Both the position numbers and the translations under genes were made by a program. Source: Gillisia sp. Hel_I_86 (GTDB lineage Bacteria; Bacteroidota; Bacteroidia; Flavobacteriales; Flavobacteriaceae). From it: DNA of 64,000 bases. Location of the stretch: positions 868,001 to 932,000 of the forward strand of contig NZ_VISE01000001.1 of the NCBI RefSeq assembly GCF_007827275.1. The letters run 5' to 3'. The notes below the pieces were generated by a model. The model had not been told where the DNA came from and did no database searches. It saw only the letters and a list, made by a program, of their open reading frames with translations. Shown here in pieces: positions 3,519-29,168 of this stretch (positions are counted from its first letter, which is position 1; each line of letters opens with the position of its first letter).

Positions 3519-4196
3519 TTAGACCAGTATATTCTCGGTTACTTTTTGCCCGTCCAGCATCCTAATTATCCTGTGGCTGAATTTTGCGTCGTGTTCGCTG
3601 TGCGTAACCATAATGATAGTGGTGCCCGCTTCGTTGAGTTCGGTGAGCAAATCCATAACCTCATTCCCGTTGCTGCTGTCCAAATTTCCTGTAGGCTCAT
3701 CGGCAAGAATGAGTTTAGGGTTATTAACCACGGCTCTGGCAACCGCAACCCGTTGCTGCTGCCCTCCCGATAATTGCTGTGGAAAGTGTTTTCTTCGATG
3801 CATGATCTGCATTTTTTCCAATACTGCATGAACCCGTTCTTTACGTTCCGCAGGTTTTACTCCTGTATAGATCAGAGGAAGCTCCACATTTTCAAAAACA
3901 CTTAGTTCATCGATGAGATTAAAGCTCTGGAAAACAAAACCTATGTTGTGCTTTCTAAGCTTGGCTCTCTGGCGCTCGTTATATCCTGCAACCTCAATCC
4001 CATTGAACAAATAGCTCCCACCATCGGGATCGTCCAGTAATCCAAGAATATTCAATAAGGTGGATTTTCCACATCCTGAAGGTCCCATAATGGCGGCAAA
4101 TTCTCCTTCTTTTACTTCAAAAGAAAGCTTGTTAAGGGCGATGGTCTGTACCTCTTCAGTTTTGTAATATTTCTCGAGGTTGGTTATTTTTATCAT
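3519..4196 (-). CDS. ABC transporter ATP-binding protein, MacB/LolD family
   Basis: A 225-residue nucleotide-binding protein that powers the adjoining permeases. Walker A is GPSGCGKST (residues 38-46), the Q-loop region is FVFQSFNLI, the signature is LSGGQQQR, and Walker B is LILADEPTGNLD followed by the H-loop VTHS. Length and motifs match the LolD/MacB ATPase subfamily. It is cytoplasmic and membrane-associated. An oppositely oriented four-helix-bundle gene and flanking repeats separate it from the adaptor gene upstream, so the operon appears interrupted by an insertion. Confidence 0.95.
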   Translation of the reverse strand: MIKITNLEKYYKTEEVQTIALNKLSFEVKEGEFAAIMGPSGCGKSTLLNILGLLDDPDGGSYLFNGIEVAGYNERQRAKLRKHNIGFVFQSFNLIDELSVFENVELPLIYTGVKPAERKERVHAVLEKMQIMHRRKHFPQQLSGGQQQRVAVARAVVNNPKLILADEPTGNLDSSNGNEVMDLLTELNEAGTTIIMVTHSEHDAKFSHRIIRMLDGQKVTENILV

Positions 4197-26930: not shown

Positions 26931-27592
26931 TTGAAAGTATCGAATATTCATAAACGAATTTTAAACCAACCGAAAATAAAGCTGGTGGAATTACTTGAAA
27001 CCCTGGCAACCGAAAATGATAAAATTTGGCCAACAGAAAAATGGCCGGCAATGAAATTCAAAAACGGAATTCGAACCGGAGCAAATGGCGGGCACGGACC
27101 CATAAGATATTCCGTTGAAAAATATGAACCAAATGAAATAATCCAATTTCGATTTTCAAAACCTGAAGGTTTTAATGGAATTCACAAGTTCGAGATTTTG
27201 TATATCCGCTTTTTGTCCTAATTGTTCTCTCGTCACGCTGAATTTATTTCAGGGTCTTAATATGGTATTGATTACCAATGTACTGAGATTCTGAAACAAG
27301 TTCAGAATGACGTCCTTTTTCAGTTTAGGACGCTTTACGGACAAACAAATTCGAGATTAACCAATTAGGAAAAAACAGAACAGAAATCCAACATACAATC
27401 GATATGCGGACTGCCGGAAAGGGTTTAATAATTTGGCCTTTAGCAATCCGTTCGTTACACAATGCCCTAATTGAAGATTCATTGGACAAAATAGAAAATA
27501 ACTTTACTGCCAATAAAAAAACGACAGAATGGAATATTTGGGTAAAAATGCTAAGAAAAATATTGGTCAGAAAAAAAGTTAGGCAATATTAA
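26931..27592 (+). pseudogene. SRPBCC-like gene split by a MITE
   Basis: The first part (TTG start at 26931) reads ...IQFRFSKPEGFNGIHKFEI; the second resumes after the insertion with NQLGKNRTEIQHTIDMRTAGKGLIIWPLAIRSLHNALIED. Removing 27198-27358 (152-bp element plus one target copy) leaves exactly 501 nt, one uninterrupted frame of 166 residues with an SRPBCC-type (polyketide-cyclase-like) layout. As it stands the protein is cut after about 90 residues. The tail overlaps the convergent MarC gene by 14 nt, and a second copy of the tail lies at 29028-29168. Confidence 0.8.
27198..27349. mobile_element. 152-bp MITE with 9-bp target duplication
   Basis: It is flanked by TTCGAGATT at 27189-27197 and 27350-27358. 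The ends are imperfect inverted repeats of the form TTGTnTnTCCG-N6-GTCCTAA. The inside carries a second hairpin (GTCACGCTGAA...TTCAGAATGACG), a motif seen as REP-like repeats in Bacteroidetes. No coding capacity, so it must have been moved by a transposase elsewhere. Confidence 0.8.
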
Positions 27593-28730: not shown

Positions 28731-29027
28731 GACTTTAAGCCACTTTTAATACTTGGCACTTCAACGTCTCCATCCTGATGTTGAAACGAATTTTGTTATG
28801 CCCTGAAACTCGTAGTCAGTTCTAACCAATTTGTAACAAGGGTCGTGAGACTTCAATACGATTTCCTGTTCTTTTGTGATTGCGGCAGGTGCGAGGTCAG
28901 AAGACCTCACGCAACGACAAGTGTTGCGCCGCTGGGTTATCTTTGAAAAGATTAGGTTAATAGTAAAAAATATTGGTGCCCTCTGGTTTCTGCACCTATC
29001 AATGATCTATAAAAGAAAAATATTTTG
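28731..29027. other. Non-coding remnant region with a strong hairpin
   Basis: No gene. At 28883-28935 a GC-richer block contains TGCGAGGTC-AGAA-GACCTCACGCA followed by a GCGGC...GCCGC-type outer pairing. GCGAGGTCAGAAG recurs at about 29267-29280. Confidence 0.45.
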
Positions 29028-29168
29028 GCAATCCGTTCGTTACACAATGCCCTAATTGAAGATTTATTGGACAAAATAGAAAATAACTTTACTGCCAATA
29101 AAAAAACGACAGAATGGAATATTTGGGTTATAATACTTAGGAAAGTATTCGCAAGGAAAAGAAGATAA
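29028..29168 (+). pseudogene. Duplicated SRPBCC tail
   Basis: 47 codons (AIRSLHNALIEDLLDKIENN...TEWNIWVIILRKVFARKRR, stop) nearly identical at DNA level to 27448-27592, diverging in the last 12 codons. No N-terminal part. It is the remnant of a paralogue or of a segmental duplication. Confidence 0.7.

Follow-up and report, generated by a model that had tools for sequence, protein, structure and literature searches.

The IS1595 family of insertion sequences comprises several groups, among them ISPna2, IS1016 and IS1595. According to the accessible part of one description, its duplications are usually of 8 bp and an N-terminal zinc finger is present outside the IS1016 group (PMC8101967); in an excerpt of another, A/T-rich 8-bp repeats are given for ISApl4 and repeats of 7-9 bp for IS1016 elements (PMC12561309). 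Bacterial MITEs, of which RUP, NEMIS, Nezha, Bcr1 and others are named in the available sections of PMC3733652, are short, non-coding, bounded by inverted ends and present in many copies. MITECca01 of Cardinium, as far as the accessible text goes, has ends in common with an IS of its own genome and comes from an IS982-family element (PMC9769881). CGTC-tagged REPs were described in 2013 as a class apparently without a dedicated transposase, its spread unexplained; the sections of that account available to us report them in Bacteroidetes, one of the positive species being G. forsetii, and present them as short hairpins with CGTC at one end, often in inverted pairs (PMC3733652).

The repeat analysed here has the short size, the lack of coding capacity, the inverted ends and the many copies of the bacterial MITEs. 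It is like MITECca01 in having ends similar to those of an IS in its own genome, but its own ends are of IS1595 type and enclose two CGTC-tagged REPs in inverted arrangement. The latter have the published features of their class and differ from the REPs in the sections seen of PMC3733652 in that two unit types lie in a TIR-bounded element with target duplications. The partner IS resembles the IS1595 family in its single gene with PF12762 and the zinc ribbon PF12760, its length of ~1 kb, its inverted ends and its A+T-rich duplications; the duplication here is, however, mostly of 9 bp, and the MITE, unlike IS1595 elements, has no transposase gene. In the literature searched, mostly outside subscription papers, we found no previous description of a MITE of IS1595 type with REP cargo. 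Our best explanation, to which we assign a probability of about 0.86, is that the segment described below is a non-autonomous IS1595-type MITE with a REP pair inside.

A 152-bp insertion with a 9-bp target duplication

The window, that is, the whole 64,000-nucleotide stretch that was analysed, corresponds to positions 868001-932000 of a single 4.245-Mb contig of Gillisia sp. Hel_I_86. The initial annotation had proposed a MITE caught inside an SRPBCC gene with an exact 9-bp duplication, and this duplication was borne out: TTCGAGATT occurs without mismatch at 27189-27197 and at 27350-27358 as a direct repeat, with 152 bp in between. The inserted element as a whole (27198-27349, plus strand; copy listed as genome position 895199) was delimited by repeat comparison, model match and the duplication count described below. 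Its conserved TG...CA part spans 27199-27347 (149 bp), leaving 1 nt to the duplication on the left and 2 nt on the right. The terminal inverted repeats are imperfect, as had been noted: the left one, TGTATATCCGCTTTTTGTCCTAA (27199-27221, plus strand), has 1 mismatch to the TIR pattern and the right one, TGTTTGTCCGTAAAGCGTCCTAA (27325-27347, minus strand), has none. At up to 3 mismatches the TIR pattern has 3 matches in the window versus 0.17 by chance, the third of these being isolated at 3543.

An inner REP-like hairpin had also been annotated, and two are in fact present: unit A, here CGTCACGCTGAATTTATTTCAGGGTCT (27231-27257, plus strand), and unit B, CGTCATTCTGAACTTGTTTCAGAATCT (27286-27312, minus strand). 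Both are CGTC-tagged and they account for two of the three REP-pattern matches in the window, a pattern absent from 100 shuffles; between MITE ends the units stand in inverted order, CGTCACSCTGAATTTATTTCAGGGTCT and CGTCATTCTGAACTTGTTTCAGAATCT. The strand of the element folds far better than its shuffles (z = -8.1 as RNA, z = -4.1 as DNA), and the whole element can be folded as one long hairpin. A search of the element against Rfam returned a single family, a microRNA matched on both strands with a score far under the gathering level.

Removal of the 152 bp and one repeat restores the frame, as the annotation had predicted. The 5' part of the interrupted gene (26931-27197, plus strand, including the left copy of the duplication), joined to its 3' part (27359-27592, plus strand, up to the stop codon), gives one frame of 166 codons with a TTG start that reads through ...HKFEI-NQLG...; both parts are defined by the joined frame, by orthologues and by alignment. 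The joined protein was matched in 5 of 60 related genomes, namely its own, G018, G020, G047 and G049; at E <= 0.001, the 15 other members of the genus that were searched gave no match. The copy in G018 is broken by stops. The other three orthologues have intact frames (163 aa in G047, 159 aa in G049 and 159 aa in G020), show 54%, 55% and 51% identity, respectively, and align without gaps across the junction HKFEI/NQLG. Since these three are continuous without the segment, 27198-27349 is an insertion, and they provide an empty site for the window copy of the MITE. The annotation was thus right about a broken gene; its SRPBCC label, on the other hand, obtained no significant Pfam, NCBIfam or PDB-sequence match, either for the joined protein or for the three orthologues. 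The same region holds a 137-bp direct repeat, 91% identical (window 27439-27575 and 29024-29160), which represents a second copy of the 3' part of the interrupted gene lying beyond a MarC gene.

Copies of the MITE and their REP units in the genome

BLAST with the element detected 41 places in the genome. The end pattern occurs at 209 sites (109 + 100) versus 10 (7 + 3) for the reversed pattern, and a covariance model built from 26 copies gave at least 137 genome matches, the best 150 of 4111 first-look candidates having been scored. The family is spread across the whole chromosome, and the expectation that other copies would have the same ends is therefore well founded.

Duplications were counted in 102 of the 137 matches, after exclusion of 29 partial or clustered/longer-element matches and of the weakest 6 of the remaining 108. 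These 102 copies are 126-178 bp long, have no coding capacity and are bounded by inverted repeats. An exact direct repeat of at least 8 bp at the TG..CA ends was found in 24 of them. Re-pairing the left and right flanks 200 times gave 1.0 such repeats on average and never more than 5; the duplication annotated in the window thus recurs at other copies far above chance. The proportion rises to 18/30 among the best-scoring copies. An exact duplication of at least 8 bp is missing in the other 78 copies, many of which have a damaged or missing end. Mean 9-mer agreement peaks where the gaps between ends and repeats total 1-2 nt. The 24 exact repeats are 91% A+T versus 62.5% for the window, although the exactness requirement may itself favour A+T.

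Median nearest-neighbour identity of the copies is 86% (96 of 101 copies). A single difference in 149 nt separates the copies at 1833410 and 1090165, whose flanks are unlike; at the level of sequence this points to fairly recent movement. Another pair differs by 2 nt. In 10 of 26 aligned copies the loop of the second hairpin is swapped for CTCCCGAACGGTCGGGA or a close variant. At one locus (L146, G000:C1:3357482-3358156) four MITE-like matches follow each other head-to-tail with a spacing of 170 bp.

According to the initial annotation, the element ties a common Bacteroidetes REP-type repeat to actual transposition. The distribution of the CGTC-tagged REP units was compared with that of the MITE, and the claim stands mainly for two unit subtypes. 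The genome contains 200 CGTC REP units at up to 1 mismatch versus 0 for the reversed pattern, and the 66 exact matches among these 200 were classified as lying inside or outside a model match. The subtypes CGTCACCCTGAATTTATTTCAGGGTCT (21/22 inside) and CGTCATTCTGAACTTGTTTCAGAATCT (19/21) together have 40 of 43 exact matches inside MITEs. The subtypes CGTCACCCTGAACTTGTTTCAGGGTCT (3/14) and CGTCATCCTGAATTTATTTCAGGATCT (0/7) together have 3 of 21 inside, and the two single variants both lie inside model matches. The MITE thus explains the spread of two REP subtypes and not that of all; the other two CGTC subtypes are mostly outside the element. A tandem array of six CGTC REP units of one type with a spacing of ~203 bp was seen at G000:C1:463203-464243.

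MITE-type ends also bound 13 longer elements of 259-557 bp. Exact repeats of at least 8 bp flank 6 of these 13 (a count made without shuffle control), 8 contain two or more REP units by the pattern used and 1 contains none. Four of them, at 457119, 649765, 941194 and 2129407, share one unit layout at separate sites, and an exact repeat of at least 8 bp is present in 1 of the four. This common layout suggests that multi-REP elements may move as units.

A candidate autonomous partner and competing explanations

The search for an autonomous transposon with matching TIRs used the end pattern built from the MITEs alone. Among the best 100 of the 209 end sites, five have no model match within 3 kb. 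Two of these (76666 and 871543) are weak and were left aside; of two others, one is a MITE remnant into which an IS5-like element has inserted (L071) and one a REP-bearing element of greater length (L138). The last of the five, 1741889, proved to mark the left boundary of a ~1000-bp element (L139:1990-2987) that encodes a 307-aa protein. The encoded protein matches PF12762 (DDE_Tnp_IS1595; 5.4e-22), the zinc ribbon PF12760 (6.2e-6) and the NCBIfam IS1595 model NF033547 (188 bits, cut-off 75). Six near-identical copies exist, with 0-3 differences in 998 nt, and further IS1595 copies in the genome comprise one at 57% and others that are more distant.

In a crosswise comparison, the left MITE consensus agrees with the right IS end at 18 of the first 20 positions and the right MITE consensus with the left IS end at 18 of 23. 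The flanks of the IS copies read C-TG...CA-G; this C/G is fixed beside TG..CA in the IS ends and missing from most MITE copies. Exact A+T-rich repeats of 9 or 10 bp flank 4 of the 6 copies (L151, L154, L155 and L156). No exact duplication of at least 8 bp was found at L152 and L153, the flanks of which look exchanged, as would follow from an inversion between the two. Three of the copies (L151-L153) lie inside 7 kb (G000:C1:1741889-1748800). No REP unit was found in the three IS copies checked, and nothing reached the gathering level when the IS region was searched against Rfam. Relatives of the IS were also considered in named genomes: ends of the same type could be located in 77 of 80 loci kept (out of 206 relatives), and exact repeats of at least 8 bp flank 52 of these 77, a figure without shuffle control that includes several copies per genome. 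Among the named genomes, a Christiangramia record has one of the closest relatives of the transposase (87%); viral contigs yielded no relative of it. The autonomous partner is thus probably this ~1-kb IS1595-family insertion sequence, which we regard as a candidate.

The distribution among relatives bears on this candidacy. Of 40 genomes searched with the MITE model (best 77 candidates per genome), 9 gave matches: that of the strain itself, those of seven congeners, and G020 from the same family. Copies in relatives have exact repeats of at least 8 bp in 5 of 26 cases, compared with a mean of 0.24 and a maximum of 2 in 500 shuffles. PF12762 was sought at E <= 0.001 in nine genus members and was found in 0 of the 7 that bear the MITE; all seven genomes are draft assemblies, which often lack insertion sequences, and the completeness of three is 65-77%. 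The other two, G010 and G011, have a relative of the IS and gave no MITE match at E <= 1e-8 (best 77 candidates). Among the genomes tested, MITE and IS occur together only in the Gillisia sp. Hel_I_86 genome itself. An autonomous element with similar ends has been found as hoped. The lack of co-occurrence makes it less likely that the MITE descends from the present IS, and leaves the IS1595-type nature of the ends unaffected. Since the MITEs are diverse and the IS copies near identical, the present IS arrived or expanded after most MITE copies. These observations would agree with a MITE family of some age that has IS1595-type ends and owes its amplification to an IS1595 relative prone to being lost; the present IS would perhaps serve the MITE again. 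Plasmid records contained no match to the element.

The absence of PF12762 from those seven relatives would also suit a DDE transposase of another family, lost or overlooked, as builder of the MITEs, the likeness to IS1595 ends being coincidental or distant. An element of 2570 bp (G000:C1:386149-388718) points the same way in having MITE ends, an 8-bp repeat and a 372-aa DDE_Tnp_1 gene. The same gene, however, occurs at two places without such ends (L068 and L070), so it was read as an IS inserted in a long REP-bearing element and rejected as MITE parent. Moreover, both IS1595 ends resemble MITE ends over 18/20 and 18/23 positions and were found by a MITE-only pattern, and MITE and IS agree in duplication length and A+T preference. 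Inspection of the loci of 36 DDE_Tnp_1 matches (67 in total) revealed no further gene between MITE-like ends, barring L120 and L122, where a 1458-bp IS interrupts a MITE; the few single end-like sites at DDE_Tnp_1 loci were not followed far. We consider a builder from another DDE family unlikely.

Three other observations concern the DDE_Tnp_1 elements themselves. The 2570-bp element (L069/L210) contains REP-like clusters, and its 8-bp repeat is AAAAGATT. An IS5-like element (family assigned by eye) with a 343-aa DDE_Tnp_1 protein at L071 (G000:C1:4158248 onward) interrupts a MITE remnant and is not taken as a parent. The 1458-bp IS has a 473-aa gene and sits inside MITEs, hence it was also regarded as an insertion rather than a parent. 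In the ten copies examined (L118-L127, G000:C1) of the 19 with the 473-aa DDE_Tnp_1 frame, this IS of 1458 bp with ends CCTATCGTGTGGACAC is placed, as judged by eye, in the loops of small hairpins, several of which lie within MITEs; repeats of ~5 bp flank 8 of the ten, L124 being shortened and L126 having mismatched flanks. Targeting of REPs has been reported for the IS4-family element ISRm22 in the part of PMC1525189 available to us.

Mobilisation as a REP/BIME unit by a HUH transposase of the Y1 type (RAYT or TIRYT), the ends being no more than outer stretches of the hairpin, is less probable still than a builder from another DDE family. The inner units are indeed REP-like hairpins, the entire element can form one long hairpin and the genome has 13 Y1_Tnp matches. 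Y1 enzymes of the IS200/IS605 group, however, are not known to duplicate their target, and clear target duplications are found at the MITE copies. In addition, REP units or TIRs on both sides were seen at none of the 6 Y1 loci examined (of 13 in total); within its 3.4-kb locus, one of the six contains one REP unit, and two contain one TIR-like site each. According to the accessible sections of PMC3733652, CGTC repeats likewise flank no gene for a tyrosine transposase. That the segment is an ancestral gene part or a single-locus assembly error is hardly credible: no support for either was found, the three orthologues that lack the segment already refute the former, and the repeat family extends across the whole chromosome.

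Proposed transposition and the spread of REP units

For the IS1595-type MITE, the proposed course of events is as follows. A DDE transposase of an IS1595-family subgroup would bind the ~23-bp ends (TGTWTRTCCG...CCTAA) and move the MITE, a staggered cut in A+T-rich DNA would give rise to the 9-bp duplication at insertion, and the insertion in the window would have broken the small gene. We infer that the MITE is moved by an IS1595 transposase, whether the present enzyme or that of a lost relative, and by cut-and-paste or by copying; how the REP pair came between the ends is likewise a matter of reconstruction. As the interior is an inverted CGTC-tagged REP pair, each jump would spread a REP pair, and as larger elements with the same ends often hold several REP units, the vehicle can probably move REP clusters as well. 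In our judgement the mechanism is ordinary, namely DDE transposition of a MITE, and the cargo is unusual.

At the level of the single locus, a small repeat offers a simple account of how one gene in Gillisia sp. Hel_I_86 broke. More tentatively, IS1595-type end pairs might be a general vehicle in Bacteroidota, capturing CGTC-tagged REP pairs or clusters and dispersing them by DDE transposition; this wider reading is a possibility that we hold at well below even odds, and if true it would explain the dispersal of a REP class that lacks a transposase of its own. For this class, which has had no known enzyme, there is now a link to a testable transposase, and, because an IS1595 enzyme with similar ends is present in the same genome, the spread of these REPs is open to a direct transposition test.
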